Below are positions 36,422 through 62,947 of a stretch of DNA of 64,000 nucleotides, one piece after another (position 1 is the stretch's first letter; every line of letters begins with the position of its first letter). The notes under the pieces are model-generated. The model was not told the DNA's origin. It saw only the letters and a program-made list of their open reading frames with translations, and did no database searches. The translations under genes were made by a program, and so were the position numbers. Origin of the DNA: an uncultured Roseibium sp. (GTDB lineage: Bacteria; Pseudomonadota; Alphaproteobacteria; Rhizobiales; Stappiaceae); NCBI RefSeq assembly GCF_947496995.1, contig NZ_CANMFD010000001.1, positions 1,670,692 to 1,734,691 of the forward strand, written 5' to 3'.

Positions 36422-38304
36422 ATCTCTTGAATTCCTTAAGGGCGGGTCTGTTCCTGACCGCCGCAATGATCGCGGGGCCGGTGGCCGCGCTGGACCTGAA
36501 GGAAACGCCGGGTCTCGATCCTTCCCTGCCGCCTGTGGCTGAGCGGCTGCCCGCCGAACCACTGGTCGTGGATCTTGAAGCCAAGGGCCGCCAGACCGGC
36601 AAGCAGGGCGGATCGATCGACACACTGATCGGCCGCGCCAAGGATGTCCGCCTGATCAACGTCTGGGGCTATGCGCGCCTTGTCGGCTATAACGAGGAAC
36701 TGGAACTCGTTCCCGACATCCTGAAAGACGTGACGGTCGAGGACGGCCGGATCTTCACGCTGCAGACCCGCAAGGGGCACAAGTGGTCGGACGGTCAACC
36801 CTTCGGCGCAGAGGACATCCGCTATTATTTCGAGGATGTCGTCAGCAACGAGAGCCTGAACCCCTCCGGACTGCCGCCGTTCCTCCAGGTCAACGGCAAA
36901 CCGCCCGTTTTCGAGGTTCTGGACGAGACCACGGTGCGCTTCACCTGGGAGGATCCGAACCCGCTTTTCCTGCCGGAACTGGCAAAATCGCGGCCGCCGT
37001 TCATCTACCGCCCGGCGCATTACCTGAAACAGTTTCATGAAAAATACGGCGATCCGGATTTCATTGCCGGCGAAGCGGAAAAGGTGAAGGCCCGCAGCTG
37101 GGCGCCGCTGCACAACAAAAAAGACGACATGTACAACGCCCAGAATGTCGATATTCCCAGCCTTCAGCCCTGGGTGCGCAAGCGCAGCGACAGCGATCTG
37201 CGCTTCATTCTGGAACGCAATCCCTTTTACCACCGGGTCGACACCGCCGGTCAGCAGCTTCCCTATATCGACAACGTCGTCATGACCGTTGCCGACGGCA
37301 AGCTGATCCCGGCGAAAGCCCAGGCGGGCGAAAGCAATCTTCAGGCACGCAATCTCAACTTTGCCGATATCACCGTGCTCAAGAAGGGCGAAAAGCAGAA
37401 CGACTACACCACGGCTCTCTGGGCCAACACCAAGGGCTCGGAGATCTCCATCCTGCCGAACCTGACGGTCAAGGACCCGGTCTGGCGCGAGTTGCTGCGC
37501 GATACCCGTTTCCGCCATGCGCTGTCACTGGCGATCGACCGCAAGCTGCTCAACCGCGTCTTGTTTTTCGGGCTCGGCAAGCCGGGCAACGACACCGTTC
37601 TGCCCGCCAGCCCGCTCTACAAGGTCGAATACACCGACAAATGGGCGGACTATGATCCCGAACAGGCCAATGCGCTGCTGGACGAGATCGGCCTGACGGA
37701 ACGCAATGACGACGGCATCCGCCTGATGCCTGACGGACGGCCGCTGGAAATCATCGTTGAAACGGCGGGTGAGGAACAGGTGCAGGACGATGCCCTGGAA
37801 CTCGTCACCGAGATGTGGCGGGAAGTCGGCGTCGAACTGTTTGCAAAGCCGAGCCAGCGCGACAACATGCGTGAGCGGGCAATCACCGGCGAGCTGGTCA
37901 TGTCCGTCTGGTGGGGTTTTGAAAACGGTATCCCGACCTCCGAAATGCCGCCGGAAGACTACGCACCGGTGCATGGGGACAGGCTTAACTGGAATGCCTG
38001 GGGCGACTACTACGAGACCGGCGGCGAGGGCGGTGAAAAGCCGGACTGGAAACCTGCCGAACGCCTGATGGAATTGTACAATTCCTGGCTCACTTCCAGA
38101 ACAGCTGAAGAACGGACGAAGATCTGGGAGGAAATGCTGCAGATCCACGCCGACGAAACCATCCATATCGGTCTGGTTTCCAGCGTTCCCCAGCCGGTGG
38201 TGATCAAGGATGTCGAGAACGTTCCGCTCGAAGGCATCTACGGCTGGGACCCGGGCGCGCATTTCGGCATTCACCGCATGGATGAATTCTACAAGGCCGA
38301 CTGA
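36418..38304 (+). CDS. ABC importer periplasmic solute-binding protein (family 5)
   Basis: A 628-residue periplasmic binding protein of the DppA/OppA (SBP_bac_5) family. The signal peptide is LRAGLFLTAAMIAGPVAA, with no lipobox cysteine. Family landmarks are FTLQTRKGHKWSDGQPFGAEDIRYYF and FRHALSLAIDRKLLNRVLF. It is longer than the usual 530-550 residues, with extra tryptophan- and acid-rich segments (WWGFENGIPTSEMPPEDYAPV). The ligand is unknown. It overlaps the ATPase gene by four bases; a 233-base gap with a strong hairpin separates it from the permeases. Confidence 0.93.
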   Translation: MNLLNSLRAGLFLTAAMIAGPVAALDLKETPGLDPSLPPVAERLPAEPLVVDLEAKGRQTGKQGGSIDTLIGRAKDVRLINVWGYARLVGYNEELELVPDILKDVTVEDGRIFTLQTRKGHKWSDGQPFGAEDIRYYFEDVVSNESLNPSGLPPFLQVNGKPPVFEVLDETTVRFTWEDPNPLFLPELAKSRPPFIYRPAHYLKQFHEKYGDPDFIAGEAEKVKARSWAPLHNKKDDMYNAQNVDIPSLQPWVRKRSDSDLRFILERNPFYHRVDTAGQQLPYIDNVVMTVADGKLIPAKAQAGESNLQARNLNFADITVLKKGEKQNDYTTALWANTKGSEISILPNLTVKDPVWRELLRDTRFRHALSLAIDRKLLNRVLFFGLGKPGNDTVLPASPLYKVEYTDKWADYDPEQANALLDEIGLTERNDDGIRLMPDGRPLEIIVETAGEEQVQDDALELVTEMWREVGVELFAKPSQRDNMRERAITGELVMSVWWGFENGIPTSEMPPEDYAPVHGDRLNWNAWGDYYETGGEGGEKPDWKPAERLMELYNSWLTSRTAEERTKIWEEMLQIHADETIHIGLVSSVPQPVVIKDVENVPLEGIYGWDPGAHFGIHRMDEFYKAD

Positions 38305-38324
38305 CGCCCGGAACCCGAAACGCA

Positions 38325-38354
38325 GTGAAGCGGCGGCCTGTTCCGCCGCTTCAC
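38325..38354 (+). terminator. Strong hairpin between binding protein and permease genes
   Basis: A perfect 12-bp stem (GTGAAGCGGCGG with CCGCCGCTTCAC, six-base loop) starts 20 bases after the binding-protein stop. There is no T-run. Such hairpins protect upstream mRNA or reduce downstream expression, giving more binding protein than permease. Confidence 0.65.
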
Positions 38355-38537
38355 TCTGACAAGGCCGGAGCCGCCGGCCTGAGGGGAATTGACCGGGATC
38401 GATCCGCTTTCGCATGAGAGCAAGGGAAAGCGGACAGGTTGATCGGTTGAAAACTGTTGGAGTAACCTTTGTCCGTTCGAGAACAGGTTGCTCCGGGGAC
38501 TGCCTTGAGGACACAATCGGGGCAGAGGGGATATTAG

Positions 38538-39563
38538 GTGCTTTATTATATTTTTCGCCGGATTCTGATGATGATCCCGACATTGTTCGTGATCAGTCTG
38601 CTGATATTCTTCATCATCGAACTGCCCTCCGGAGATTACATTTCCAACCAGATCGCGGCGCTGAAATCCACCGGTGAGCAATCCTCCATCGCCAAGCTGG
38701 AATTCCTGCGCAAGGAGTTCTCGCTCGACAGGCCGTTTTTCGAACGCTACCTCGTCTGGATCGGTCTCTGGCCCGGACCGCACGGCCTGGACGGGCTCAT
38801 TCAGGGCAACTGGGGCTGGTCGTTCGAGTTCGACAAACCGGTCGACCAGGTCGTCGGCCCGACACTGCCGCTGACCATCGTGCTCAACTTCGCCACGATC
38901 CTGTTCGTCTATGTCGTGTCCTTTCCGATCGGGATCTATTCGGCGACGCGGCAATATTCCTGGGGGGACTACGGTTTCACCTTCATCGGCTATATCGGCC
39001 TGGCAACGCCCAACTTCCTGCTGGCGCTGATACTGCTGTATCTGTTCAACCTTTGGTTCGGCCTGTCCGTCGGCGGCCTGATGGCGCCGCAGTATATCGA
39101 CCAGCCGTGGAGTTTCGACAAGGCGATGTCGGTGCTGGCACATCTGATCATCCCCACCATCGTTATCGGAACGTCCGGTACCGCCGCCATGATCCGGCGT
39201 CTTCGCGCCAATCTTCTCGATGAACTGCACAAGCAGTATGTCACCACCGGCCGTGCCAAGGGCCTGAAGGAAAACCAGCTCCTGATCAAATATCCGCTGC
39301 GGATGGCCATCAATCCGTTCATTGCCGATATCGGCAACCTGATCCCGTCGCTGGTGTCCGGCTCGGTGATCGTCTCCGTGGTGATGAGCCTGCCGACCGT
39401 CGGGCCCGTCCTGCTGTCGGCCCTGCAGTCTCAGGACCAGTTCCTCTCCGGCTTCATCCTGCTCTTTGTCGCCGTGCTCACGCTGATCGGCATGCTGATC
39501 TCCGACCTGCTGCTGGCGGTCCTCGATCCCAGGATACGTCTTGGTGGGAGGGCGGCGTCATGA
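38538..39563 (+). CDS. ABC importer permease (DppB-type)
   Basis: A 341-residue inner-membrane permease with about six to seven helices. It has the DppB-type N-terminus (YYIFRRILMMIPTLFVISLLIFF), and the cytoplasmic EAA-like loop with its conserved glycine is LHKQYVTTGRAKGLKENQLLIKY. The start is GTG at 38538. It overlaps the second permease by four bases and completes the importer. Confidence 0.94.
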   Translation: MLYYIFRRILMMIPTLFVISLLIFFIIELPSGDYISNQIAALKSTGEQSSIAKLEFLRKEFSLDRPFFERYLVWIGLWPGPHGLDGLIQGNWGWSFEFDKPVDQVVGPTLPLTIVLNFATILFVYVVSFPIGIYSATRQYSWGDYGFTFIGYIGLATPNFLLALILLYLFNLWFGLSVGGLMAPQYIDQPWSFDKAMSVLAHLIIPTIVIGTSGTAAMIRRLRANLLDELHKQYVTTGRAKGLKENQLLIKYPLRMAINPFIADIGNLIPSLVSGSVIVSVVMSLPTVGPVLLSALQSQDQFLSGFILLFVAVLTLIGMLISDLLLAVLDPRIRLGGRAAS

Positions 39564-40741
39564 GCATGGACCCGAAAGACGGAACCCCGAAGCGCGAGGT
39601 CGAACACTACGTCGACCCGGCTCCCTTCAATCCCGCTGTCACCGAGGAGATGACGGCCGCACAGGAACGCTTCTTCCAGGCGTCCCAGTGGCAGATCATG
39701 TGGTGGAAGTTCAAGCGCCACAAGCTTGCCGTCTGGTCGGGCATTGTCCTGATTCTGTTCTACCTCTGCGTTCCCTTCGCCGAGACGATCGCTCCCTATA
39801 CACCGAACCTGCGCGACAGCGACCACCTCTATGCGCCGCCGCAGCCGGTGCACCTCTTCCATGATGGCCGTCTGGTCGGGCCGTTCGTCTACGGCATGAA
39901 GTCGTCCCTCGACATGGAGACCCTGCAATGGGTCTTTACGGACGATACCAGCGATGTGCAGCGGATCCGCTTCTTCTGCAACGGTGCGCCCTATGAATTC
40001 TGGGGGCTGTTCGACACCACCTTTCACCTGTTCTGTCCGGCGGAAGGGGGAACGCTCTTCCTTCTGGGCACCGACAGGCTCGGCCGTGACCAGTTTTCCG
40101 GTCTTGTCTACGGCGCCAGGCTGTCGCTCACGGTCGGCATCGTCGGCGTGACGATCTCCATCGTGCTCGGACTGTTCTTCGGCGGTATCGCCGGCTATTT
40201 CGGCGGCTTCCTCGACAACATCATCCAGCGGATGATCGAAATCATCAGATCGCTGCCGGAATTGCCCCTGTGGATGGCGCTCTCGGCGGCGCTGCCGGTC
40301 ACCTGGGGCCCCGTGTGGATCTATTTCGGTCTGACGATCATTCTCGGTCTGCTCGACTGGCCGGGGCTAGCGCGCGCCGTGCGCTCCAAGCTGCTGTCGC
40401 TGCGCGAGGAGGAATACGCCAAGGCCGCGGTGCTCATGGGCGCCAAGCCCGGCCGGGTGATCACCCGCCATCTGCTGCCCGGTTTCACCAGCCACATCAT
40501 CGCCTCCGCGACCCTGTCGATCCCGGCGATGATCCTGGGCGAAACCGCGCTGTCCTACCTCAATCTCGGCCTGCGCCGTCCGGCCGTTTCCTGGGGCGTT
40601 CTCTTGAACGAGGCGCAGAACATTTCCGTAGTCACCGTCTATCCCTGGCTGATGGCACCGGTGCTGCCGATCATCATCGTGGTTCTGGCGTTCAATTTTC
40701 TCGGCGACGGTTTGCGCGATGCGGCAGATCCCTATAAGTGA
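39560..40741 (+). CDS. ABC importer permease (DppC-type)
   Basis: A 393-residue permease, about 90 residues longer than common DppC proteins. The N-terminal cytoplasmic part and first helix (LAVWSGIVLILFYLCVPFAETIA) are followed by a large periplasmic loop of about 120 residues (DSDHLYAPPQ to LGTDRLGRDQFS). The core permease domain then has the EAA loop EEEYAKAAVLMGAKPGRVI. It starts inside the previous gene's stop (ATGA). A hairpin with a short T-run ends the operon. Confidence 0.94.
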   Translation: MSMDPKDGTPKREVEHYVDPAPFNPAVTEEMTAAQERFFQASQWQIMWWKFKRHKLAVWSGIVLILFYLCVPFAETIAPYTPNLRDSDHLYAPPQPVHLFHDGRLVGPFVYGMKSSLDMETLQWVFTDDTSDVQRIRFFCNGAPYEFWGLFDTTFHLFCPAEGGTLFLLGTDRLGRDQFSGLVYGARLSLTVGIVGVTISIVLGLFFGGIAGYFGGFLDNIIQRMIEIIRSLPELPLWMALSAALPVTWGPVWIYFGLTIILGLLDWPGLARAVRSKLLSLREEEYAKAAVLMGAKPGRVITRHLLPGFTSHIIASATLSIPAMILGETALSYLNLGLRRPAVSWGVLLNEAQNISVVTVYPWLMAPVLPIIIVVLAFNFLGDGLRDAADPYK

Positions 40742-49146: not shown

Positions 49147-49929
49147 TCAGCGTGAACGCAGCGAACTCAAACCGTCAAACAGCCCCTTCACGTCCGGCCA
49201 TTCAGCGCCGTCATGATGCGCGGCAATCGCCAGAAATTCTTCAAGAAATTCGAAACAGCCCTCGTCATGGGCCAGATGGTGGGTCAACAGGCCGAGCGGC
49301 TCGCTTCCCGTATTGCGGCGGCGGGTGAGCTGCAGGTCGAAGCGCAGCCGTGCGCTTTCCCAGCCGATGAAACGCACCTGCTTCTTCCATTTGATGATGT
49401 CGACATGCGACTGGACCTGATGGGCGCGCGGAAAATTGTGCCAGGTGAAAGTGGACAGACCCGGCAGGCCGATCTCCGGCAGACGGCGGGAGATTTCCGC
49501 ATCGATCCGGTTCCACGGCGGAACCATGGCGGCAATGAATTTGTCGCCAAACAAATCCTCCAGCCGCGCCTTGCCCTGTGCGAGCTGACCGATCAGCTCC
49601 TGAGGATCGCGGCGCGAGCCGAGTTCGGCCGCCTTTTCGCCGAGATCCTTGCGCTGAAAGTTCCTGTGCTGCCAGCCGTGCTGCAGAACATGGGCATGCG
49701 GCTCGTTGCAAAGCCGGTCAGCCAAGGCTTGGGTGGCATCCTTGGGGATGACAGCAAGGGCGATGTCGACACCGTGCCGGTTGGCCAGATCGAGCATGCG
49801 CTCAAGCGCCGGGGTTGGCTCAATCGCATCGTCGTCCCGCCACCAGAAGTGGACCTTGCGGTTTCGCTCCGCGAACCAGTCCAGATGGGCGGTCAGTTCG
49901 TTCCTGAAACGTTGCAGGTCTTGCGTCAT
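49147..49929 (-). CDS. Polysaccharide deacetylase-like protein
   Basis: A 260-residue protein with a NodB-like arrangement: WWRDDDAIEPTPAL (residues 28-41) in place of TFDDG, and the metal-binding HGWQHRNF (about residues 83-90) as HxxxH. PPWNRID follows, as in the R/PxW motif. No signal peptide is visible, so it would act in the cytoplasm, on a lipid-linked or nucleotide-linked sugar perhaps. It is the last gene of a five-gene operon with four glycosyltransferases and overlaps the one before by four bases. Confidence 0.85.
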   Translation of the reverse strand: MTQDLQRFRNELTAHLDWFAERNRKVHFWWRDDDAIEPTPALERMLDLANRHGVDIALAVIPKDATQALADRLCNEPHAHVLQHGWQHRNFQRKDLGEKAAELGSRRDPQELIGQLAQGKARLEDLFGDKFIAAMVPPWNRIDAEISRRLPEIGLPGLSTFTWHNFPRAHQVQSHVDIIKWKKQVRFIGWESARLRFDLQLTRRRNTGSEPLGLLTHHLAHDEGCFEFLEEFLAIAAHHDGAEWPDVKGLFDGLSSLRSR

Positions 49930-51080
49930 CTCTTGCGGCCCTCCAGATCTTCCAGAAGGATATCGGCGCTTTTCTCCGCGCCACCGAGCATCACCTGGTG
50001 ATGACTGCGGGGCAGGGCAAGAGCGTCGTCGATAGCGGCTGCCAGCCGTTCCGGGGTCAGGCCCGCTTCCGGCACGACGATCGCGCGGCCATGGTTGGCC
50101 AGCGCCTGCGCCCGCTGGCTCTGCTCGGTCTCATTGGCCTGTGCAAACGGCACCAGCACGGCTGCAACACCTGCGATCAGGATATCGAGTACGGTATTAT
50201 ATCCGGCCTGGCTCACAGAAAGCCGGGCGCGTTTCAGCAGCTCGGGAAAATCCCGGCGGGCACGCTCGACGATCACGCCTTTTCCCGCGCGTCCTTGATA
50301 GACGGCAAAGGCTTCAGGGGACACATCGTGACCGATCAGCACCCGCCAGGGCGTATCCTCCGCGCGCCGGGAAAGCGGGCGGGCGTCCAGCGCGGCCGAC
50401 AGCAGCCCTTCCGCCACAGCGCCGCCGCCGCAGGAGATGATCACCTCGTCCTCGCCGTCGCTTGCCTCCGCCGCGGGGCGTGCGCCGCCACCGACATAGC
50501 CGGTGTAGCGCACGAGCGGGGCAACCCGGTCCGCAAAGGGAAAACTGTCAGCGAGCTGAATGAAATCCGGATCGGAATGGATCAGGATACGGTCGTAGTA
50601 TCTGAGCGCCTGATCCGCCATCCATTCCTCTTTCCAGAGTTCCTTCTTGCGCACCAGGATGTCACGGATGGAAGTGGCAATCAGCGGCGGCTTTGCACGC
50701 GCCCTGGCGGTTTCCAAAAGCGGCGTCAGTTCGAAATCGAGCTGACGGCGGCCGAAGGGGTAGGTCTCCGTCAGCAGCAGATCGAAGTCATCTGCTTCGA
50801 ACGCTTGAATCGATGCATTAACGCGGGCGGATTTCCAAGTCTCGTCAATATCTTGATTGTCCAAAGTGACAAGACGCTTGAAAGCGGCGTCCGGGCTCTT
50901 GCAGGCCGGAAGCTCGACGATTGTAAGTCTGCCGGTGTCCAGTGTCGGCGGGATCCTGTTGCCGCTGGCGAGTGTCACCTCTACGCCTCTGGCGGCCAAC
51001 GCCTTGCCGATACCTGCGGCCCGGACCACATGGCCGGTGCCCAGCAGATGCTGCACATGGATGAAGGCCTTGAAGCTCAT
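49926..51080 (-). CDS. MurG-like glycosyltransferase (GT-B fold)
   Basis: A 384-residue glycosyltransferase. The N-terminus HVQHLLGTGHVVRAAGIGKALAARG carries the GTGHxxR motif of MurG/GT28-type proteins. The C-terminal part has VIISCGGGAVAEGL and LSVSQAGYNTVLDILIAGVAAVLVPF, the donor-sugar binding region of that family. It overlaps both neighbours by four bases. Donor and acceptor are unknown. It is similar in fold to the first gene of the operon. Confidence 0.88.
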   Translation of the reverse strand: MSFKAFIHVQHLLGTGHVVRAAGIGKALAARGVEVTLASGNRIPPTLDTGRLTIVELPACKSPDAAFKRLVTLDNQDIDETWKSARVNASIQAFEADDFDLLLTETYPFGRRQLDFELTPLLETARARAKPPLIATSIRDILVRKKELWKEEWMADQALRYYDRILIHSDPDFIQLADSFPFADRVAPLVRYTGYVGGGARPAAEASDGEDEVIISCGGGAVAEGLLSAALDARPLSRRAEDTPWRVLIGHDVSPEAFAVYQGRAGKGVIVERARRDFPELLKRARLSVSQAGYNTVLDILIAGVAAVLVPFAQANETEQSQRAQALANHGRAIVVPEAGLTPERLAAAIDDALALPRSHHQVMLGGAEKSADILLEDLEGRKR

Positions 51081-52204
51081 GGAACGGCAGTCTCCGTGCG
51101 CGCTTCGTAGGTTTGCACGGCCTTGCGGACAAAGGCATCGAGCCGCCCCGCCCCGGCGTCAAGCGAATGGCGGCTATCGATATGCTGGCTGGCGGCATGT
51201 CCCAGCCGGTCGGCCAGGGAAGGGTCGTCCAGCACCCGCTCCAGATTGGCGGCGAAACCCGCCGCATCGCCTTCCGCCGACAGGAGACCGGTTTCGCCGT
51301 CGACAACGATATCCGGCACCCCGAACGTATCTCCCGCGATAATGCCGATGCCCGCGGCTTGAGCTTCCAGAAGCACAAGACCGTAGGCTTCACGGATTGC
51401 CGGCCAGACGAGCAGATCGTGGCGGGCATAGTGAACGGCAATCCGGTCCTCGGGCAGGGCGCCCAGCCAGGCGACCTTTTCCGGCGGGAACAGCTTCTTC
51501 ACATGGTCCCGGTTCGGCCCGTCGCCGATGATCGTCAATTGCCAGGACCTGTCCCGCACCTGTGTCAGCGCTTCGGCCAGAACCTCATAGGATCTGGTCT
51601 TGTCGCCTTCGCGCATCATGCCGACCGCAAGCAGCTTCAAGGGCAGGGCCGCCAGCGGCTTGGCGGCCTCGGAGGCCTGCCGGTAGGGGGCTGTATCCAG
51701 AAACGGCAGAAGCACCTCCAGGCGCTCGTCAGGAACGGCCGCGCCCAGGCATTCCGCGTCGGCATTATGGATCGCCGCGACCGCATCCGCCCGGTGCAGT
51801 GCTGCATCGGCAGCGGCAAATCCGAAAGCCCAGTCGTCCGTCTGGCGCTTCGGGGCGCGGCTGGCTTCGACAATGGCGTAGGGCAGGGCAAATCGCTCTG
51901 CCAGCGCGGGGCCGATCCAGTCGGGTGCCTTGTGATAGAGGTGATAGGTCAGAAACAGATCCGGCCTGTAGCCGGTTTTTTGCCAGTCGGCGGCGATCCG
52001 CTCAACTTCCTGCAGGGCCTCCGCCTTCACGGCCGCCTGAATGGCGGTGCTCCCTTCCTTGCGCCACGAGCGGAAGGTGCTGGCAACGGTGACCTCATGC
52101 CCGGCCGCCTCCAGTGCCTTGACGATCAGGCGTCCCATTGTCCGGTCCCCGGAAGGCACCGGATGGTCCAGCGGTTTCATCGGAGCGGTAAAGGCGATCT
52201 TCAT
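51077..52204 (-). CDS. Glycosyltransferase family 4-type protein
   Basis: A 375-residue GT-B glycosyltransferase. The N-terminus is IAFTAPMKPLDHPVPSGDRTMGRLIVKAL; the C-terminal half has LTIIGDGPNRDHVKKLF, VAWLGALPEDRIAVHYARHDLLVWP and EAYGLVLLEAQAAGIGIIAG, the E-x7-E donor motif of the GT1/GT4 group. It lies 39 bases after the previous glycosyltransferase gene and overlaps the next by four. Specific sugar unknown. Confidence 0.88.
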   Translation of the reverse strand: MKIAFTAPMKPLDHPVPSGDRTMGRLIVKALEAAGHEVTVASTFRSWRKEGSTAIQAAVKAEALQEVERIAADWQKTGYRPDLFLTYHLYHKAPDWIGPALAERFALPYAIVEASRAPKRQTDDWAFGFAAADAALHRADAVAAIHNADAECLGAAVPDERLEVLLPFLDTAPYRQASEAAKPLAALPLKLLAVGMMREGDKTRSYEVLAEALTQVRDRSWQLTIIGDGPNRDHVKKLFPPEKVAWLGALPEDRIAVHYARHDLLVWPAIREAYGLVLLEAQAAGIGIIAGDTFGVPDIVVDGETGLLSAEGDAAGFAANLERVLDDPSLADRLGHAASQHIDSRHSLDAGAGRLDAFVRKAVQTYEARTETAVP

Positions 52205-52243
52205 GAGGTTCCTTGCTGAGGCGTAAGGCGGTGACCCGGCACC

Positions 52244-53464
52244 TCAGAGCACCTTACGGAATTTTTCCGCCAGGCGGTCAAGTCCCGGATCGGTGGCAAA
52301 ATCCTTGCGCACCAGCCGGGAGGCCGCAAGGCCGAGCGCGTTGCGCCGCGCCGGATCCCGGATGAGACCTTCCATGGCCTGCGCAAGGTCTTCGCGTGCA
52401 CCGGGAGCCACAAGCACGCCGGTCTCGCCGTCCCGGATGAGTTCCGGAATGGCCGACACGCGGGTGGACAGGCAGCAAAGGCCCATCGACTGGGCTTCCA
52501 TCAGGACATTGGGCAGCCCGTCCCGGTCGCCGGACTTAGCCAGTTTGGACGGCAGGATGAAGAGGTCCGCCTTCTGACAGGCGGAAATGACTTCCTCGCG
52601 CGGCTGCGCCCCGCGCCAGTCGATCCTGTCTGAAAGACCCAGCTTGCCGGCTTCGGCCTTCAGGGCATCCGACAGTTCGCCGCCGCCGATATGGGTGAAG
52701 TGCCAGTTGAGGTCACCGGGAAGCCGGGCGAGCGCTGCAAGAAGATCGTCATAACCTTTTTTCTCCACCGCCCGCCCGACGGAGACGAGCCGGACCGGCT
52801 CTCCTGTGCCGTCCCGATGGGACGGTACCTGGTCGGGCGGCGGAAAGCCCGAGAAATCCAGGCCGTGATAAAGCAGCTCCACCTTGCCTGGGTCGTCGGA
52901 CAGGCCGTTCAGATGTTCGACGTTGACGCGCGTACAGGTGACGCCCCAGGCAGCATCGTTGATTTTCGTCTTCAGGTCCCATTCCGGACTGGTCCAGATG
53001 TCCTTGGCATGGGCGGAAAACGACCAGCCGCGCCCGGAAAGATGGGCAGCATATCTGGCGGCCGAGCAGGGCGTGTGCAGGTAATGGGTATAGATCCAGG
53101 AAATATCGTCCGGCAGCTCGTGAGCAAAAACGCAGCCCTGTGCCCAGCGGCGGCGGCGGTCCGCGTTCGGCTGGCGGGCGAGATCTGCATCGAACAAGGC
53201 TTTTGCGGCTTCATAAGTCGGCTGCTTCTCGGCCCAGCGTTTCGCCCTTGCGACACGCGCCGGATCGTCCTTGACGTATTCGGGAAGATACATCACCTCG
53301 GCGGAAATCTGCCGGTGCAGGTCGTGAATGAACGGGTCGTAGGGCTTGCGCAGGGCGACGATCAGGACGCCGATGCCCCGCCGTTCCAGCCCGAGAATTT
53401 CCTGGGCAATGAAGGTCTCGGAAAGGCGCGGGTAGCCTTTGACCACAATGGCAATACGGGACAT
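52244..53464 (-). CDS. Glycosyltransferase family 4
   Basis: A 406-residue GT-B glycosyltransferase. N-terminal motif VVKGYPRLSETFIAQEILGLERRG is typical of colanic-acid-type GT4 enzymes (WcaL-like). The donor site is LVSVGRAVEKKGYDDLLAAL, IDWRGAQPREEVISACQKADLFILPS and LPNVLMEAQSMGLCCLSTRVSAIPEL. It is second in the operon, 45 bases after the first gene. A hexosyl transfer to a polysaccharide or lipid carrier is expected from the family. Confidence 0.92.
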   Translation of the reverse strand: MSRIAIVVKGYPRLSETFIAQEILGLERRGIGVLIVALRKPYDPFIHDLHRQISAEVMYLPEYVKDDPARVARAKRWAEKQPTYEAAKALFDADLARQPNADRRRRWAQGCVFAHELPDDISWIYTHYLHTPCSAARYAAHLSGRGWSFSAHAKDIWTSPEWDLKTKINDAAWGVTCTRVNVEHLNGLSDDPGKVELLYHGLDFSGFPPPDQVPSHRDGTGEPVRLVSVGRAVEKKGYDDLLAALARLPGDLNWHFTHIGGGELSDALKAEAGKLGLSDRIDWRGAQPREEVISACQKADLFILPSKLAKSGDRDGLPNVLMEAQSMGLCCLSTRVSAIPELIRDGETGVLVAPGAREDLAQAMEGLIRDPARRNALGLAASRLVRKDFATDPGLDRLAEKFRKVL

Positions 53465-53509
53465 CGACGGGCTCTTGATGCGGGACGCGGAAGGGGCACG
53501 GTCCGCCGG

Positions 53510-54727
53510 TTAGAAATTGACCAGTTTACGGCCGTCATCGACCAGTTGTTCTTCGAAAATCCCACCCACGCGGGTGGTGATTACATCAAGACCACCGAGA
53601 AGATTGTCGACACCGGCGGAGGAGGGCGCCGCCATGTCCGGGAGCTCCGACAAGGCTGCCGACATAAGGTCTGAATCCGGATAGCGATCGATCGGCAGCA
53701 CTTTGAGAAGACCGCTTTGTTCCGCCCGTTCTGCCCGGATGGCCTGCTCGCGGCGCGGGATCACGCGCGGCACCATCAGTGTCGGCTTGTCGAAGGACAG
53801 GATCTCGCAGAAGGTGTTGTAGCCGCCCATGCCGACGATCGCGGTTGCATGGGCGAGATACGGCTCGATCTGGGGCGTGAAGCGGATGATCTCGACATCG
53901 CGCAAATGTTCCGCCCGTTCGCTGAACTGGGCAGCCGCCGCCGCGGGCATGAACGGGCCTAGCACGATCAGAGCGGGAAACAGCGGCCGCTGCCGGGTTT
54001 CATAGGCGCGCATCACCCAGTCCACCATTTCAACGCCGTCGCCCCCGCCTCCGGGGGTGACCAGAATATAAGGTTCCTCGCCGAAGGGTGTCGGCGGCGG
54101 GTCGTCCTTGACCGCATTGGGCAATTCGCGCCGCAGGTATCCGGTGTAGCGGAGCTTGTCCGTAACGTTGTCGGGCAGGCTTATGCCTTCAAGCGGATTG
54201 CAGATGTCCTGCGGGCCGTAGATCCAGATATCGTCGTAAAGATCCCTCAGCGCGGGGTAGACGTTCTTGCGGTCCCATTCTTCCTTGAGAACCGCCGGGT
54301 CGTCCATGACGTCCCGCAGACCGAGCACCAGCCGGGTGTCGGTCTCCTTGAGCGCCTCGAGCGTGCGCAGCACTTCACCGCGCAGGCCAAGCGGCTCCTT
54401 GTCGACGATGAAGATATCGGGCTCGAACACCTTGGCCGTGTGTTCGATGATCGACGAGCGGATCGCCAGCGTCTGATCGATGTTGATATGCAGGGAAAGC
54501 GGCGTGTATTCGCCGTTGCGCAGTTTGATGACGCCGGGAATGCGGACAAAGTCTACGCGCGAGCGGAACTCGAAACTGCCGATGATCGGCGAGCCTGAAA
54601 GGATAAGCACGGACAGCGTATCGAAATCGCCGACGAGGGAATGAGCAATCGCGCGGCACCGCCGCAGATGGCCAAGTCCGAAGGAATCGTGGCTGTAGAT
54701 CAGTATCTTCGGCGTCTTGGAACTCAT
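53510..54727 (-). CDS. Predicted glycosyltransferase (COG4671-type)
   Basis: A 405-residue GT-B protein that opens the leftward operon. It has ILIYSHDSFGLGHLRRCRAIAHSL at the N-terminus, a GHLRR motif as in MurG relatives, then ILVTPGGGGDGVEMVDWVM and IVGMGGYNTFCEILSFDKPTLMVPR. The start at 54727 follows CCAGGGGC. It runs divergently from the ABC transporter operon across 483 bases. Donor and acceptor are unknown. Confidence 0.87.
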   Translation of the reverse strand: MSSKTPKILIYSHDSFGLGHLRRCRAIAHSLVGDFDTLSVLILSGSPIIGSFEFRSRVDFVRIPGVIKLRNGEYTPLSLHINIDQTLAIRSSIIEHTAKVFEPDIFIVDKEPLGLRGEVLRTLEALKETDTRLVLGLRDVMDDPAVLKEEWDRKNVYPALRDLYDDIWIYGPQDICNPLEGISLPDNVTDKLRYTGYLRRELPNAVKDDPPPTPFGEEPYILVTPGGGGDGVEMVDWVMRAYETRQRPLFPALIVLGPFMPAAAAAQFSERAEHLRDVEIIRFTPQIEPYLAHATAIVGMGGYNTFCEILSFDKPTLMVPRVIPRREQAIRAERAEQSGLLKVLPIDRYPDSDLMSAALSELPDMAAPSSAGVDNLLGGLDVITTRVGGIFEEQLVDDGRKLVNF

Positions 54728-55210
54728 ACTGCCCCTGGAATTGTAAAGCTTCCCCAAGCCACATTCTTATTAGACAGGCCGAAAAGGTGCAAGAAACGAC
54801 GATGCACCGCCTGAAGTCGAGCAAAAACCTGCCAGGCTTCGGCAAGGCAAAACGCGTTGCCGGGCCGTTCCCGGTGCAGAGCTGCCACCGAGCAAAGCTC
54901 TCGCCCGTCCGGCAATGGACAAGGTCCGGAAACCCGCTTGCTATCCTGGCGTCTTGTCCGGACGAAATCGCTCATGTCAGTTCAGCCTGTCTTCGTAGGG
55001 AGTGGCCGGAGGCCTTATGTCTCAAGTGATTGGCCTTTGTCACGTCCCGTTATGGCTTGACACGAAACTTTCGACAGGGAACGGTCAAATGACACTATCA
55101 AAGTGCTTGTGGCAAATGCTAATCCAGACTGGCACAACGAATTGGGATCGTTAATATACCGGATGTGATCTGCTTGCACATATATGATCCATGTCTGTTT
55201 GGATGAATTG
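54728..55210. other. Divergent promoter region between glycosyltransferase and ABC operons
   Basis: 483 bases that must hold the promoters of both operons. The right part (about 55060-55200) is AT-rich. A TGGCAC at 55130 is not followed by a correctly spaced GC, so it is not a sigma-54 promoter. I see no strong palindrome and no coding potential. Confidence 0.5.
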
Positions 55211-57793
55211 ATGGAAAAAAGCCTTTTTAGCTTTATTTGGAAGTATAGCGCTCGGCAACAGATCTACATTCTTCTGGTCACCGTTCTGTCTTATCCAGTG
55301 GTCTATGTTCTGCTGGAACTGCCGAAACTGATTGTGAACGATGCAGTTCAGGGGGACAATTTTCCGCGGAATATACTGGGCTTCGATTTCGATCAGGTGC
55401 CCTATCTGCTTCTGCTGTGTTTTACATTTCTGGGTCTCGTGGTCGTTTCCAACGGGCTGAAATTCTATCTGAACGTTTTTAAGGGCCGTCTTGGCGAGCG
55501 CATGCTGCGGCGCTTGCGCTTCGAGCTCTTCCAGCGCGTCCTGCGCTTCCGGCTGCCGCATTTTCGCAAGGTGAGCTCCGGCGAGATCATTCCGATGATT
55601 ACATCGGAAGTCGAGGATGTCGGCGGGTTTATCGGCGAGGCGTTCGCGCTACCGGCCTATCAGGGCGGCATGCTGGTGGTCCAGATCGGGTTCATCTTCA
55701 TGCAGGACCCGCTGCTGGGCCTTGCTGCGATCAGCTCCTATCCCATTCAGGGATACGTCATTCCCTATTTGCAGAAGCGGGTCGTCATACTGTCGCGCCA
55801 GCGGGTCCGCAACATCCGCGTGATCGCCGACAAGGTGGGCGAAAGCATCACAGGCGTGGCGGAGATCCATGCCAACGATGCTGCCGCGTGGCATTCAGCC
55901 GATATATCCGATCGTCTGTATGAGAATTTCAGGATCCGCTACGAGATCTTCAACCGCAAATTCCTGATCAAGTTCCTGAACAACTTCATGAACCAGCTGA
56001 CGCCGTTCTTCTTCTATCTGATCGGCGGCTATCTGGTGATCGAGGGCAACTTGAGCATCGGTGCGCTGCTGGCGGTGATCGCAGCTTACAAGGATCTGGC
56101 AGGCCCCTGGAAGGAGCTTTTGTCCTACTACCAGATGACCGCGGACGTCAGCGTCAAGTATCAGACGGTTGTCGAGAATTTCGATCCGCCGGACATCCAC
56201 GAACTCGACCGGCTGACAAGCGACGAGAAGGCCGAGCTGAGCGGCGATCTCAAGTTCGATAATGTGAGTTTCTCGGGCGGTGCCGCCGGCCAGGAGGTCA
56301 TGGAAATATCCCTGACCGTTCCCGCGGGCACAGCCTGCGCGATCGCCGGGCCAGACGGCTCCGGCCGGTCCGAAGTGCTGCAGCTTGCGGCGGGGCTGGT
56401 CTCGCCCTCGTCGGGCAAGATCTGCATCGGGGAGCACGATCTGGACAAGCTGACGGATTCGACCCTCGGCCGCGAAATCGCCTACGTCGGCGGGGCTGTC
56501 CACGTTTGGACCGGCACCATCCGCGACAACCTCTACTACGGTCTGCGTCACAGGCCGCTGATTCTGCCCGAACGCGAGGGCGAAGCTCTCAGGCTGTACA
56601 AACGACGGGTCAGCGAAGCGAAGGAAACCCGCAACCCGCTCTACGACCTCGAAGCTGTCTGGGACGATCTGGAAGCAGCAGGCGCCGACAGCATCCATAC
56701 GCTCGACGAAAAGGCTCTGGAGCTTCTGGAAGCCGTTGGGCTCGACAAGGACATCTACCGCCTCGGGCTGCAGTCGCGGTTTGATCCGTCGATGGATGAC
56801 ACATTTGCCGGAAAGATCCTGAACGTACGCAAGAACCTTGCAGATCGCATCCTGCATGAACCGGCCCTCGAAGGCCTGGTTGAGCTCTGGCATCCCGATC
56901 GCTTCAATGCCAGTGCGAACCTTGCCGACAACCTATTCTTCGCCGTTCCCTCCGATCCTGAAATCACCATGGATCAGGTGCCGGAAATGGAGGAGGTGAG
57001 GGCGTTCCTTACCGAGACCGGGCTTGACGAAAAGTTGCGCAAAGTTGGCTTGAAGATCGCCGAAACCATGCTGGAACTGTTCTCCAACGTCTCCGGCGAC
57101 AGCGGACTTCTGGGGGCGTATTCCTTCATCACCCAGGATGAAATCCCCGAATTCGAGCGGATCGTGCGGATCGCCAAGTCAGAGCAGCAGCGGCCGGGAC
57201 TGACCGATGCGGACAGGTCCAGGCTCAGGGGGCTGGCCTTCAAGCTGGTGCCTGCCCGGCATCGTCTGGGAATCATGACCGATGAGCTTCGCGATGAGGT
57301 CATAGCGGCCCGCAAGAGGTTCCTGGAGACCGTGGTCAAGGATAATTCGGCCTTTGTTGCCTTCGATCCGGACGTCTATCTGCCGCCGCTCACCATCGAG
57401 GATAACCTCCTTTTCGGCCGGGCAAGGGTCGATCGCAGGGACGCCCGCAGGCGCATCGACGACGTCATCCGCACGATCGTGGAAGAGACAGGCTTGCGGC
57501 GTCCGATCATCTACGCGGGCTTCGGTTATCATGTCGGCGTGTCCGGGTCCCGTCTGTCGGCAGGCCAGCGACGCCGTATTGCATTGGTCCGGGGTCTTCT
57601 GAAAAATGCAAAAATCACCATATTGGATGATATCGCCACAGGAACGACCGAAGACGACAAAGCATTGCGCCGTGGTCTTCAGGAAATACTGTCTGGAAAG
57701 ACTTTCCTGTTCGGGACGTCCAATGCCGATATAGCGGCCGAATTCGATCAGCGGTTCATTCTGGACCAGGGGCGCATTTCAGATAAGGGGTAA
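55211..57793 (+). CDS. ABC exporter-like protein with degenerate ATPase and long insert
   Basis: An 860-residue half-transporter. Residues 1-320 are an exporter-type membrane domain (YILLVTVLSYPVVYVLLELP; FLNNFMNQLTPFFFYLIGGY). The ATPase starts at about 345. Walker A is GPDGSGRS (380-387) with arginine for the lysine; the Q-loop position is GG (427-428); the signature LSAGQRRRIAL (782-792) lies about 395 residues later instead of about 100; Walker B is ITILDD, with aspartate for the catalytic glutamate; the switch histidine is replaced (GTSNAD). The insert repeats an xDNLxFG-like segment. The start at 55211 is preferred over 55184 on protein grounds. It is first in an operon with a cNMP-binding and an MBL-fold gene. 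Confidence 0.87.
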   Translation: MEKSLFSFIWKYSARQQIYILLVTVLSYPVVYVLLELPKLIVNDAVQGDNFPRNILGFDFDQVPYLLLLCFTFLGLVVVSNGLKFYLNVFKGRLGERMLRRLRFELFQRVLRFRLPHFRKVSSGEIIPMITSEVEDVGGFIGEAFALPAYQGGMLVVQIGFIFMQDPLLGLAAISSYPIQGYVIPYLQKRVVILSRQRVRNIRVIADKVGESITGVAEIHANDAAAWHSADISDRLYENFRIRYEIFNRKFLIKFLNNFMNQLTPFFFYLIGGYLVIEGNLSIGALLAVIAAYKDLAGPWKELLSYYQMTADVSVKYQTVVENFDPPDIHELDRLTSDEKAELSGDLKFDNVSFSGGAAGQEVMEISLTVPAGTACAIAGPDGSGRSEVLQLAAGLVSPSSGKICIGEHDLDKLTDSTLGREIAYVGGAVHVWTGTIRDNLYYGLRHRPLILPEREGEALRLYKRRVSEAKETRNPLYDLEAVWDDLEAAGADSIHTLDEKALELLEAVGLDKDIYRLGLQSRFDPSMDDTFAGKILNVRKNLADRILHEPALEGLVELWHPDRFNASANLADNLFFAVPSDPEITMDQVPEMEEVRAFLTETGLDEKLRKVGLKIAETMLELFSNVSGDSGLLGAYSFITQDEIPEFERIVRIAKSEQQRPGLTDADRSRLRGLAFKLVPARHRLGIMTDELRDEVIAARKRFLETVVKDNSAFVAFDPDVYLPPLTIEDNLLFGRARVDRRDARRRIDDVIRTIVEETGLRRPIIYAGFGYHVGVSGSRLSAGQRRRIALVRGLLKNAKITILDDIATGTTEDDKALRRGLQEILSGKTFLFGTSNADIAAEFDQRFILDQGRISDKG

Positions 57794-57895
57794 CGATATG
57801 GCGGCGAATACTGGAGCGCGGCGAGCCTGCAGACCCCGGTCTGATGCAGGATTGCGAACAGGCCGGGATATGCACGATCTGTCCAGGAGGCAAAA

Positions 57896-58354
57896 ATGAC
57901 ACTGGAAACCGAAGTCGAAGCCCTGCGAAAGGTCCCGCTGTTCCACGGTATTGATGAAACCAAATTGCGTCTTCTGGCATTTATAAGTGACAGGACGGAA
58001 TATCCGGCGGGCGAACGCCTGTGTTCCCAGGGAGAAGAGGGCGACTGCGCGTTTATCATTCTCTCGGGTGATGCGGATGTTCTGGTTCACACGCCGGAAG
58101 GAGAGAAGAAAGTCGCCCAGGTCTCGGAGAATTCCATCGTCGGCGAAATAGCCATTCTTTGCGATGTCCCGAGGACTGCCACACTGGTCGCCGCAAATAA
58201 CATGGACGTTCTAACGGTTTCGAAAGATGATTTTCTGAAACTGCTGAAAGAATTTCCGGATATTTCGCTGGAAGTCATGCGGACACTGGCGCTGCGGCTT
58301 GAACGGACGACCCGTGATCTGGCCGATGCGCGCCGGGGAGCTGCCGGCGGTTAG
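57896..58354 (+). CDS. Cyclic-nucleotide-binding domain protein
   Basis: A 152-residue single-domain protein with the cNMP-binding beta-barrel. The phosphate-binding cassette is SIVGEIAILCDVPRTATLVA, which keeps the glutamate and arginine that hold the ribose and phosphate. A C-terminal helix (LEVMRTLALRLERTTRDLA) follows and there is no DNA-binding domain, so it is a sensor subunit, not a CRP. CAGGAGG precedes the ATG. It lies 102 bases after the ABC gene and 10 bases before the MBL gene. Confidence 0.92.
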   Translation: MTLETEVEALRKVPLFHGIDETKLRLLAFISDRTEYPAGERLCSQGEEGDCAFIILSGDADVLVHTPEGEKKVAQVSENSIVGEIAILCDVPRTATLVAANNMDVLTVSKDDFLKLLKEFPDISLEVMRTLALRLERTTRDLADARRGAAGG

Positions 58355-58364
58355 GGAGTAATAC

Positions 58365-59189
58365 GTGGCTGAAGAATTTTCGCTTCGCTGTTGGGGCGTC
58401 AGGGGATCCACCCCGACACCCGGGTCGAGCACATTGCGATACGGAGGCGAAACCTCCTGTTTCGAGATCCGGGCAGGCGACGCTCTCGTGCTCGTCGATT
58501 GCGGCTCCGGCGCGCGAAACCTCGGCATGGAGCTGTGCGGATGCAGACCACGTTCATTCGATCTGCTGTTCACCCACACGCATCTCGATCATATTTGCGG
58601 ATTGCCTTTCTTCAAGCCGGCCTACGATCCCAATTTCGAGGTAACCGCCTGGGCGGGCCACTTTCAGGACGACACCAGTCTGGTCGATATCGTCAGCCGC
58701 ATCATGTCGCCGCCGATCTTTCCGGTCGCGGCCAAAACCCTGAAAGCGGTCGAGTTCAAATCCTTTACCGCAGGCGAACCCATTCCGCGCACCGACGACC
58801 TGGTGATCAAGACAACCCGCCTCAATCATCCAGGCGGTGCCTGCGGCTACCGCTTCGACTATCACGGCAAATCGATCTGCATCATTACCGACCATGAACA
58901 CGGAGATCCGGAGATCGATGCCGCCCTGCCGGAGTTCGTCCGGGACGCGGATGTCATGATCTACGACGCCATGTTCACCGACGAGGAATATCCGGTCTTC
59001 AAGGGGTGGGGACATTCCACCTGGCAAAAGGCCGTGGAGCTGTCGAAAGCCGGTAACGTCAAGACCCCCGTTCTCTTCCATCACGATCCGCTCCGCTCGG
59101 ACGACGAACTCGATGAAATCGGCCTTGCCGCCCAGAACGCCTATCCGGGCATGCTGGTCGCAAGCGAGGGCATGATCCTGCTGCCCTAA
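58365..59189 (+). CDS. MBL-fold metal-dependent hydrolase (PhnP/COG1235-like)
   Basis: A 274-residue metallo-beta-lactamase-fold hydrolase. The dinuclear metal site starts with THTHLDH (H71, H73, D75, H76); later ligands lie in RLNHPGG, ITDHEH and FHHDP. The N-terminus LRCWGVRGSTPTPG is shared with cyclic-phosphate phosphodiesterase-like members. A phosphodiesterase on cyclic nucleotides is plausible beside a cNMP-binding gene but not shown. The start is GTG at 58365 after TTAGGGAG, ten bases after the previous stop. Confidence 0.9.
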   Translation: MAEEFSLRCWGVRGSTPTPGSSTLRYGGETSCFEIRAGDALVLVDCGSGARNLGMELCGCRPRSFDLLFTHTHLDHICGLPFFKPAYDPNFEVTAWAGHFQDDTSLVDIVSRIMSPPIFPVAAKTLKAVEFKSFTAGEPIPRTDDLVIKTTRLNHPGGACGYRFDYHGKSICIITDHEHGDPEIDAALPEFVRDADVMIYDAMFTDEEYPVFKGWGHSTWQKAVELSKAGNVKTPVLFHHDPLRSDDELDEIGLAAQNAYPGMLVASEGMILLP

Positions 59190-60255: not shown

Positions 60256-61407
60256 TTGGGCGTTGCTGCGGAAAAATATTTTCACCTCTCGAACATTGCC
60301 GTTGCCGCGGCAATGGACCCGGATTGCTGGCAGCAGTTGCTTGACGAAATGGGACAGGCAATCGGTACGCGGGTGTGCACCCAGCTCATCGGCTTTGACC
60401 AACTGACCAAAGCAGCTCCGCTTGCCTATGCCTCAGGCTACGATCCGGAATTTGTGAAGCTTTATGAAACCCATTATGCCGACAAGAACCCGTTCGCGGC
60501 GAATTTTGAAAAATGCGCGGTCGGTGCGTCCATTTCCGCCGATCAGCTCTGCGCGCCGGAGAGGCTGAAGAAAACCGGGTTTTACGCGGACATCATCCGG
60601 CCGCAGGAGGATATCTACGGCGGCGGCGGATCGATGCTTGCGAACGATTCAGGCCGGATGGTCCTCATAGGCGGAAATTTGCGGGCCAAGGATCGCGACA
60701 AATACGAGCGGGAATGGCTTCGTCTGTGTGAGGCATTGACGCCGGTTATCCGCCAGTCGCTCGAAATCAGTCGCACCATCTCAGGGTTGTCGTTCGAGAA
60801 ATGGGCGGCCGAGCATCATATGCTCGGTGCGGATACGGCGATATTCGTCGTGGATCCCACCATGACGATCCACCACGCGTGCGACGTTGCGCAAGAGATG
60901 CTGGACAGGGGAACGCCGGTGGGCAGCGGGTTCAATCGCCGTCTCAAGTTCTCTTCCGAAGAGGATCAAAGGCAGTTCGCAACTCTTTGCCGGCTTCAGC
61001 TCAAGGGCAATCAAAACATCTTCAAGAGCTGGCGTCTTACCGACGGACGGGGACAGGGGTGGACCTGCCGTCTTATGGGACTGCGCATGGGCGAACTGGA
61101 CTGGTCGCCTTTTGCAGGCTTTTTGACAAAATCGATCACGACCATCCTGATTGCAATCAAGAAGGATGTCAGCCAGGTCTCCATTCAGGAAATGATGCAG
61201 ACGGCTTTCGGTCTCAGCCAGGCAGAAGCCCAGTCCGCGCTGCTGCTCGCCGACGGGCTGACACTCGCGGAGATCGCGCAGAACCGCCAGGTCAGCATTT
61301 ATACCGTGCGGAACCAGATCAAGGCCGCCCTGTCGAAATCCGGATGCCGGCGCCAAAGCGAACTGGTCAGCAAAACCGAACAGATGCGCCTGCAGGGCGG
61401 CTGGTAG
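60256..61407 (+). CDS. LuxR-family transcriptional regulator
   Basis: A 383-residue regulator. A C-terminal LuxR helix-turn-helix (GLSQAEAQSALLLADGLTLAEIAQNRQVSIYTVRNQIKAAL, about 320-362) follows a long N-terminal part of about 310 residues with two PAS/GAF-like segments. It is too long and unlike in sequence for an acyl-homoserine-lactone receptor of the usual 240 residues. The start is TTG at 60256 after GGGGGAATC; an ATG at 60313 is an alternative. It stands alone before the second cyclase gene; no ligand can be assigned. Confidence 0.85.
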   Translation: MGVAAEKYFHLSNIAVAAAMDPDCWQQLLDEMGQAIGTRVCTQLIGFDQLTKAAPLAYASGYDPEFVKLYETHYADKNPFAANFEKCAVGASISADQLCAPERLKKTGFYADIIRPQEDIYGGGGSMLANDSGRMVLIGGNLRAKDRDKYEREWLRLCEALTPVIRQSLEISRTISGLSFEKWAAEHHMLGADTAIFVVDPTMTIHHACDVAQEMLDRGTPVGSGFNRRLKFSSEEDQRQFATLCRLQLKGNQNIFKSWRLTDGRGQGWTCRLMGLRMGELDWSPFAGFLTKSITTILIAIKKDVSQVSIQEMMQTAFGLSQAEAQSALLLADGLTLAEIAQNRQVSIYTVRNQIKAALSKSGCRRQSELVSKTEQMRLQGGW

Positions 61408-61591: not shown

Positions 61592-62947
61592 ATGAGCTCT
61601 TACCGCGACACCTTGTATTATATTTTCCGTGGCGGCCCGCCGGATGCCGGAATACCGGCAAGGGTGCGCGCGGAAATCCGATCCAACGAGGCGACGTCAG
61701 AGCGGTTGATCGGCTGGGTCCAGCTGGGCCTGGTGTTGTTCTTTTCGAGCCTTTATGCGATTGCGCCCAGGGCGGAAGGCTCCGCCGGGTTCAATTTCGT
61801 GCCTATCGCTCTTGGCATCTATTTTCTTTTCACGGTGCTGCGGCTGTTTCTCTCCTACAGGTTCGAGCTGCCGAACTGGTATCTGCTGGTTTCGATCGGT
61901 GTCGACATGGCGCTGCTGGTCGGGCTGATATTTTCCTTCCACATTCAATACGGCCAGCACCCGACGTTTTATCTCAAGACGCCGACCCTGATGTATGTGT
62001 TCATTTTTATTGCCCTGCGGGCGCTCAGGTTCGACCCGCGCTTTGTTCTGACGACGGGCCTGGCGGCCGTCGCAGGCTGGCTCGGACTGGTTTTCTATGC
62101 GGTTCTGGCGGACATGGACCATATGCGGGTGACCCGCAATTACGTTGAGTATCTGACCGGAAACACGATCCTGATCGGGGCTGAGCTCGACAAGACGATG
62201 GTCATCTTCGCGGTGACGATCATCCTTTCCGTCGCACTCTACCGGGGGCGGTCGATGCTCTTCGAGGCCACCCGCGACCATGCGGCGGCGATGGACCTGC
62301 GCCGGTTCTTCGCACCTGAAGTCGCCGCGTCGATTACCGGAGCGGATACGCAACTGCAGGCCGGGGAGGGCAACTTGCGGGAGGCGGCGATCCTTTATGC
62401 CGACATCCGGAGCTTCACCGCCACATCCGCCGGACTGCCTCCGGAGACCGTTCTGGCTGTCCTTGCGGAGTATCAGAACCTTGTGGTGGAAGTGATCAAT
62501 CAGGAGGGGGGACGTGTCGACAAGTTTCTGGGGGACGGTATCCTGGCCACCTTCGGCGCCATCCAACCGTCGACCACGTTTGCCGCCGACGCACTGCGGG
62601 CGGCCACGCGCCTGATCGAAACTGTCGATGCCGGCCAACACCGGTTTTCCGCCGCCGGCTGGCCCGGCTCTCTGAGGGTGGGCACGGCGGTTGCCGCCGG
62701 GAAGGTCACTGCCGGGGTGATCGGCTCGAAGTCCAGGCTGGAGTTCACCGTCATCGGCGATGCGGTCAACCGGGCGGCGAAACTGGAAGACGCCAACAAG
62801 GCCCAGCATACCAAGGCCTTGACCGACAGGGCCACCTGGGAACTTGCCCGCGCGCAAGGCTTGCAGGTGCCTTTGATCGAGGAGAGGCCCGGCGCAAATG
62901 TGGCGGGCATTCCGCAACCGCTCGATCTGGTCGTCCTGGCCCACTGA
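61592..62947 (+). CDS. Membrane adenylate/guanylate cyclase (six-helix)
   Basis: A 451-residue class III nucleotide cyclase. Residues 35-230 make six hydrophobic segments (LGLVLFFSSLYAIAP; LLVSIGVDMALLVGLIF; VIFAVTIILSVALY). The catalytic domain from about residue 260 has the metal-binding aspartates in ILYADIRSFT and FLGDGILATFG, the lysine in VDKFLGD and VIGDAVNRAAKLED. All catalytic residues expected for an active cyclase are present. It lies 184 bases after the LuxR gene on the same strand and 2.4 kb from the MBL/cNMP operon. Confidence 0.92.
   Translation: MSSYRDTLYYIFRGGPPDAGIPARVRAEIRSNEATSERLIGWVQLGLVLFFSSLYAIAPRAEGSAGFNFVPIALGIYFLFTVLRLFLSYRFELPNWYLLVSIGVDMALLVGLIFSFHIQYGQHPTFYLKTPTLMYVFIFIALRALRFDPRFVLTTGLAAVAGWLGLVFYAVLADMDHMRVTRNYVEYLTGNTILIGAELDKTMVIFAVTIILSVALYRGRSMLFEATRDHAAAMDLRRFFAPEVAASITGADTQLQAGEGNLREAAILYADIRSFTATSAGLPPETVLAVLAEYQNLVVEVINQEGGRVDKFLGDGILATFGAIQPSTTFAADALRAATRLIETVDAGQHRFSAAGWPGSLRVGTAVAAGKVTAGVIGSKSRLEFTVIGDAVNRAAKLEDANKAQHTKALTDRATWELARAQGLQVPLIEERPGANVAGIPQPLDLVVLAH

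Follow-up and report, generated by a model that had tools for sequence, protein, structure and literature searches.

In a 64-kb window, by which is meant the whole stretch of DNA that was analysed out of the 5.46-Mb genome of an uncultured Roseibium sp., three genes follow one another on the + strand. They encode an ABC exporter-like protein, a single-domain protein with a cyclic-nucleotide-binding domain (CNBD) and a hydrolase of metallo-β-lactamase (MBL) fold, and a class III cyclase is encoded further on. The named ABC relatives nearest to the window's protein are those of Labrenzia and Roseibium, with 75–87% identity. The four genes are:

55211–57793, + strand: ABC exporter-like protein, 860 amino acids, a type IV exporter membrane domain with a degenerate nucleotide-binding domain (NBD)
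57896–58354, + strand: single-domain CNBD protein, 152 amino acids, partner of the ABC protein
58365–59189, + strand: MBL-fold hydrolase, 274 amino acids, PF12706, with a THTHLDH metal site; candidate cyclic-nucleotide phosphodiesterase
61592–62947, + strand: class III cyclase, 451 amino acids, the N-terminal part hydrophobic and probably in the membrane

The reading frame of the ABC gene is open from 55184, and MEKSLF at 55211 agrees with the start of its relatives. Between the ABC and CNBD genes there are 102 bases, between the CNBD and MBL genes 10 and between the MBL and cyclase genes 2402, which bears out the gene order, the spacing and the same-strand cyclase 2.4 kb downstream of an original prediction made from the letters alone. 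The Pfam matches, all above cut-off, are ABC_membrane and ABC_tran for the ABC protein, cNMP_binding for the CNBD protein, Lactamase_B_2 for the hydrolase and Guanylate_cyc for the cyclase. Scans for promoters and terminators gave signals no more than in shuffled sequences, and a comparison with PHROGs returned general ABC and hydrolase matches only.

How constant is the partnership of the first two genes? Of 123 ABC loci, 100 have the CNBD gene next on the same strand, 15 have it fused in frame, five have it elsewhere in the stretch fetched, and in three it was unseen. Leaving out L062 and L169, in which the ABC match is shorter than 780 residues (one is without a CNBD gene and the other has a distant one), and five loci at least 95% identical to another gives 116 distinct loci, with the corresponding numbers 95, 15, four and two; in one of the last two, L120, the contig ends shortly past the ABC gene. 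The median distance between the ABC stop and the start of the CNBD match is 36 bases. A FastTree tree has at least two switches between the fused and separate states, by fusion or by fission. The fusions were aligned without free CNBD proteins, the inclusion of which misplaced the CNBD rows. In four loci labelled Gammaproteobacteria the CNBD gene is apart from the ABC gene, being less than 1 kb from a cyclase gene in L105 and L107; a search of L110 and L136 gave no cyclase. As firmly as sequence allows, there is a strong case that the CNBD and the ABC protein are one functional unit. Two fusions carry an extra C-terminal GGDEF domain (L122, 2095–5613, E 1.2e-13; L114, 10001–13504, E 3.1e-6), and these possibly link cyclic-mononucleotide and c-di-GMP signalling.

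The window's CNBD has the fold (PF00027, 72.6 bits) and, as had been claimed, an intact phosphate-binding cassette, which reads VGEIAILCDVPRTAT:

58139–58192, + strand: phosphate-binding cassette VGEIAILCDVPRTATLVA, with the motif GE..R[TSA]A

Of 98 CNBDs, counted with near-copies, 89 have the motif intact, and Thr comes after the Arg in 86; three of the nine altered cassettes are those of the fused proteins L063, L064 and L065, in which decayed Walker A and altered cassette occur together. The cassette Glu and Arg we take to be the cyclic-nucleotide contacts of classical CNBDs, and the closest solved structures include cGMP- and cAMP-dependent kinases. A CNBD protein is likewise tied to transport in the bacteriocin-type transport systems of TIGR03896, a model that matches the window's CNBD weakly (44.1 bits, cut-off 161); there is no bacteriocin gene among the tabulated conserved genes of the cluster described below, though no search aimed at bacteriocins was made.

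ABC exporters with a CNBD are already known, and HetC of Nostoc PCC 7120 is the nearest experimental precedent. HetC is described as a peptidase-containing exporter with an N-terminal CNBD (PMC10986499), and the likeness lies in an ABC exporter whose function requires the attached CNBD. HetC differs in its C39 peptidase, in the N-terminal position of its CNBD and in its need for the ATPase Glu. In the window's family the CNBD is either a protein of its own or the C-terminal part of the exporter, and most of the catalytic residues are gone; a peptidase domain is absent among the Pfam matches of the window's exporter.

The ABC protein itself has exporter membrane domain and NBD in one chain, which is the type IV exporter fold, and the heterodimeric exporters TM287/288 and TmrAB are among the matches listed for that fold. 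That it is altered, as originally read, was corroborated: Walker A is GPDGSGRS, Walker B is ILDD and the H-loop His is absent. An active ABC ATPase has the Walker A Lys and Ser/Thr, the Walker B Asp, the catalytic Glu and the H-loop His; in the window these five places read R, S, D, D, S, two being kept. Nor is this peculiar to the window. The whole set of five is seen in just one of the 116 distinct members (L047), four are kept in three members, three in 21, two in 49, and one or none in 42, the sequences being trimmed to the matched stretch so that the place of the H-loop His is uncovered in six rows; one of those, L170, has the other four and might be canonical. In its catalytic residues the NBD is thus degenerate family-wide. 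The window's own genome encodes five other exporters with canonical motifs (Walker A, LSGGQ, DEAT and His), namely L002, L003, L004, L006 and L005, the last the same as L008. In a sixth, L007, the patterns for Walker A and LSGGQ were matched and the one used for Walker B was not. Not everything in the family has decayed. A basic residue, K or R, is at the Walker A position in 104 of the 116, and the signature motif, with Gln in 107 and Ser or Thr in 97, has fared better than the Walker and H-loop residues. Since the basic residue and the signature Gln persist, nucleotide binding may remain.

The hallmark of the family is an insertion in the NBD of approximately 270 residues, present in 131 of the 385 genomes of the class, which by hhalign is a triplication of the helical-subdomain segment. 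The relevant features are:

56348–56374, + strand: degenerate Walker A, GPDGSGRSE, K to R
56543–57370, + strand: NBD insertion of approximately 270 residues, the hallmark of the family, from alignment
56468–56800, + strand: repeat copy 1, TIRDNLYYG, the segment after the Q-loop in the helical subdomain, from hhalign
56858–57130, + strand: repeat copy 2, NLADNLFFA, from hhalign
57332–57556, + strand: repeat copy 3, TIEDNLLFG, extending into the signature motif, from hhalign

The window's protein is no MsbA, scoring 171 bits against a cut-off of 602 for the MsbA equivalog model, and its degenerate catalytic residues and the triplicated segment within the NBD set it apart from MsbA and type IV ABC exporters in general.

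Is the third gene as constant a neighbour as the second? The three-gene set was expected to recur in other genomes, and while adjacency or fusion of ABC and CNBD holds in 95 and 15 of 116 loci, all three stand side by side in only 25 of 123, counting an MBL gene on the same strand no more than 520 bases past the CNBD gene and including two near-copies. In 10-kb flanks it was in 20 of 80 named loci and in none of 20 in another set, from which the MBL gene looked like a lineage-specific neighbour; as a general statement that was wrong, and it was rejected since a search for the MBL protein itself, together with wider stretches, placed the gene in many genomes at the cluster's far end, where it can sit beyond an importer. 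Among the matches listed, covering 129 of the 131 ABC genomes and 92 of the 111 MBL genomes, 71 genomes have both and in 24 of them the two are less than 30 kb apart, with approximately 1.3 expected on the assumption of 1.3 MBL copies and 4.2 Mb per genome and without regard to relatedness. Both the pairing of ABC and CNBD genes and the association with the MBL gene thus go far beyond chance. A Methyltransf_17 (PF12692) gene often replaces the MBL gene after the CNBD gene, e.g., at 9862–10371 of L057, and a relative of it is somewhere in the fetched stretch in 30 of the 80 named loci. L191 and L192 are a pair of adjacent, divergent MBL paralogues with 40% and 48% identity to the window's protein.

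The hydrolase, to which a dinuclear metal site had been attributed, has the metal motif THTHLDH, and HXHXDH is kept together with further His/Asp residues in its 20 relatives, of which one has a gap at that place. Atypical class-II phosphodiesterases are defined by PF12706 with [T/S]HXHXDH, and Rv1339, YhfI and C. glutamicum CpdA have this fold and motif in common with the window's protein (PMC9293780). The signature is present in the window, and it is unspecific, RNase Z sharing the motif in an alignment. Unlike that class, the window's hydrolase is far below the cut-off of the cyclic-nucleotide phosphodiesterase model NF041851 (37.2 bits against 400, the model being perhaps narrow) and is nearer to RNase Z models.

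The cyclase has the catalytic domain of class III adenylyl cyclases (PF00211, 45.8 bits), with motifs YADIRSFT and DKFLGDG, the residues of which are presumably the metal-binding Asp pair and the substrate-specifying Lys; of the transition-state pair expected, the Asn is kept. A relative of it is downstream of the MBL gene on the same strand in eight of 29 MBL loci, the best-scoring ones and not a random draw, and none is upstream or on the opposite strand in those loci within the 1.5 kb fetched, on which account hydrolase and cyclase are called a recurrent pair of their own. Such pairs are also in G135 and G236, genomes off the ABC list. Where an expected value for cyclase linkage was used beside that for the MBL gene, it was taken from the cyclase density over 40 genomes, again ignoring relatedness.

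The conserved unit in its full extent is a glycan-type cluster much larger than three genes. Its members in the window, and a regulator beside them, are:

53510–54757, − strand: glycosyltransferase, GT28-C-like, divergent from the ABC gene
52244–53464, − strand: glycosyltransferase, GT4 type
51077–52204, − strand: glycosyltransferase, GT4 type
49926–51080, − strand: glycosyltransferase, GT28/MurG-like
49147–49929, − strand: polysaccharide-deacetylase-like protein, below the Pfam cut-off
34532–36421, + strand: importer ATPase with two NBDs, oligopeptide type, conserved cluster member
36418–38304, + strand: importer substrate-binding protein, SBP_bac_5
38538–39563, + strand: importer permease 1
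39560–40741, + strand: importer permease 2
60256–61407, + strand: LuxR-type regulator, between the MBL and cyclase genes

Relatives of the four glycosyltransferases and the deacetylase-like gene are in 70, 66, 65, 63 and 54 of the 80 named loci, and those of the oligopeptide-type importer in 62 of 103 loci, a few of these being probably unrelated ATPase matches. A histidine phosphatase gene, absent from the window's cluster, is in 43 of the 80. On R. leguminosarum pRLG202 one stretch has cyclase, importer, three annotated glycosyltransferases, ABC and CNBD, and on S. meliloti pSymB it has the same with one annotated glycosyltransferase. For S. meliloti 2011 the pSymB locus is L148, and the annotated one, of strain R14, is L149. 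In 15 wide cluster layouts the MBL gene is in 10 and a cyclase in seven, though nine of those genomes were chosen for a nearby MBL gene and so 10 of 15 is no rate. In alphaproteobacteria, many of which have it, the cluster is probably there to make and move an envelope product that contains sugar; in the open-licence PMC literature, judged by titles and the beginnings of abstracts, no description of it was found. The glycosyltransferases (49926–54757), the importer (34532–40741) and the LuxR-type gene had no place in the original prediction. A relative of the last was found in no more than four of the 80 named loci, and these four are from Roseibium or Labrenzia. A second class III cyclase of the window (30312–32234, 640 amino acids), with HAMP and cyclase domains and Cache below cut-off, is upstream of the importer, a position that a cyclase also takes in rhizobial clusters.

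What might such a cluster do? The class III cyclase would make a cyclic nucleotide, most likely cAMP, and the CNBD, fused to the ABC protein or docked on its cytoplasmic face, would bind that nucleotide; the liganded CNBD would alter the conformation of the ABC protein or its residual use of ATP, a glycan precursor from the four glycosyltransferases would then be flipped or released, and the MBL enzyme would clear the signal. We infer cAMP as ligand, phosphodiesterase activity of the MBL enzyme and the direction and nature of the transport. That an envelope-product cluster is conserved in which an exporter-like ABC protein is under control of a dedicated CNBD, with a cyclase providing the signal and the hydrolase removing it, is a proposal that we regard as evenly poised. 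It extends the circuit first suggested, of cyclic nucleotide made by the cyclase, sensed by the small protein to control the ABC protein and removed by the hydrolase. Of that circuit the ABC–CNBD unit stands. So does the finding that in many genomes hydrolase and cyclase, a recurrent pair, belong to the cluster too; ligand and hydrolysis keep their conditional.

Several findings tell against the proposal. At the place of what we take to be the transition-state Arg of class III cyclases the window's cyclase has Lys, as do 15 of 20 cyclase rows among the matches listed (24 in all, the window included). In narrow flanks a cyclase is in 22 of the 80 named ABC loci, with approximately 4.5 expected, and in 40 further loci there are seven cyclases in six, with approximately 2.1 expected; since 15 of the 22 are one lineage block this enrichment is not relied on. 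With 10 cyclase matches and 10 CNBD matches in the window's genome, the circuit is not bound to be a private one. Among the matches listed, 10 of the 71 genomes with both ABC and MBL genes have them on the same contig more than 30 kb apart, 37 have them on different contigs (often in drafts, and counted as misses), and a further 21 MBL genomes are off the ABC list altogether. In a model of a fused protein the linker is disordered, with pLDDT below 50, and the docking surface is not established. With RNase Z models the hydrolase scores 69.9 bits, above the 37.2 for phosphodiesterase, both far below cut-off, and the CNBD of HetC, while essential, bound ppGpp and not cAMP (PMC10986499). These last two points favour an alternative in which the CNBD binds some other ligand, such as ppGpp, cyclase and hydrolase are unrelated neighbours, and the latter could process RNA. 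That seems unlikely to us, given that the cassette retains its Glu and Arg, that cyclic-nucleotide-dependent kinases are among the nearest solved CNBD relatives and that MBL–cyclase pairs also occur in genomes off the ABC list. Unlikelier by far, indeed scarcely credible, is an anti-phage system like Pycsar, in which a cyclase signals to a cyclic-nucleotide-sensing membrane effector. PADLOC models of Pycsar cyclase and effector do match the window's cyclase and CNBD, and in 15 loci a membrane protein is fused to a CNBD, but the matches span only the shared cyclase and CNBD domains, the ABC family recurs in a cluster with glycosyltransferases and importer, and beside the ABC gene a cyclase was often not found.

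Catalytic decay raises alternatives for the ABC protein itself. CFTR and SUR have the ABC fold, degenerate sites and control by nucleotides or cyclic-nucleotide signalling, and by analogy the window's protein might be a cyclic-nucleotide-gated channel, scramblase or membrane receptor; CFTR and SUR are eukaryotic and without a CNBD subunit, so that the analogy is no more than that. The near absence from the 116 members of a full catalytic set, with Walker A wholly lost in some fused members, the canonical state of five other exporters in the same genome, and the presence of the CNBD, as a fusion or as the next gene, in 110 of 116 are what such a pseudo-transporter would lead one to expect. However, the family has largely preserved the Walker A glycines and basic residue and the Gln of the signature, which makes it probable that ATP binding matters, and some ABC proteins function with one degenerate site; we consider a pseudo-transporter rather unlikely but worth keeping in mind. 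Could the protein instead be a degenerate, regulatory subunit that forms a heterodimer with some canonical exporter whose gene lies elsewhere, the CNBD tuning the two? TM287/288 and TmrAB among its fold matches are in keeping with this, as is the better preservation of the signature motif, the element that the partner would need to complete its own site. In the 15 wide layouts there is no second match to the ABC query, so the partner would have to lie elsewhere, and a heterodimer is distinctly improbable. The boldest reading is that there is a widespread bacterial family of cyclic-nucleotide-gated ABC proteins in which the ATPase has decayed, ligand binding by the attached CNBD has become the gate of a former exporter and a cyclase–phosphodiesterase pair in the cluster is its own. 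We think this doubtful; if true, it would give bacteria an equivalent of the ligand-gated ABC proteins, with an NBD having a triplicated helical subdomain.

In bacteria, cAMP is familiar mainly for its part in transcriptional control. The conserved ABC–CNBD unit would put envelope export under direct, post-translational cyclic-nucleotide control in many alphaproteobacteria, the symbionts Rhizobium and Sinorhizobium among them. It also raises the question of what role there is for an exporter whose ATPase residues have been lost family-wide and whose sensor partner has been kept, and for that question the natural ABC–CNBD fusions, L132 among them, are single-protein constructs.

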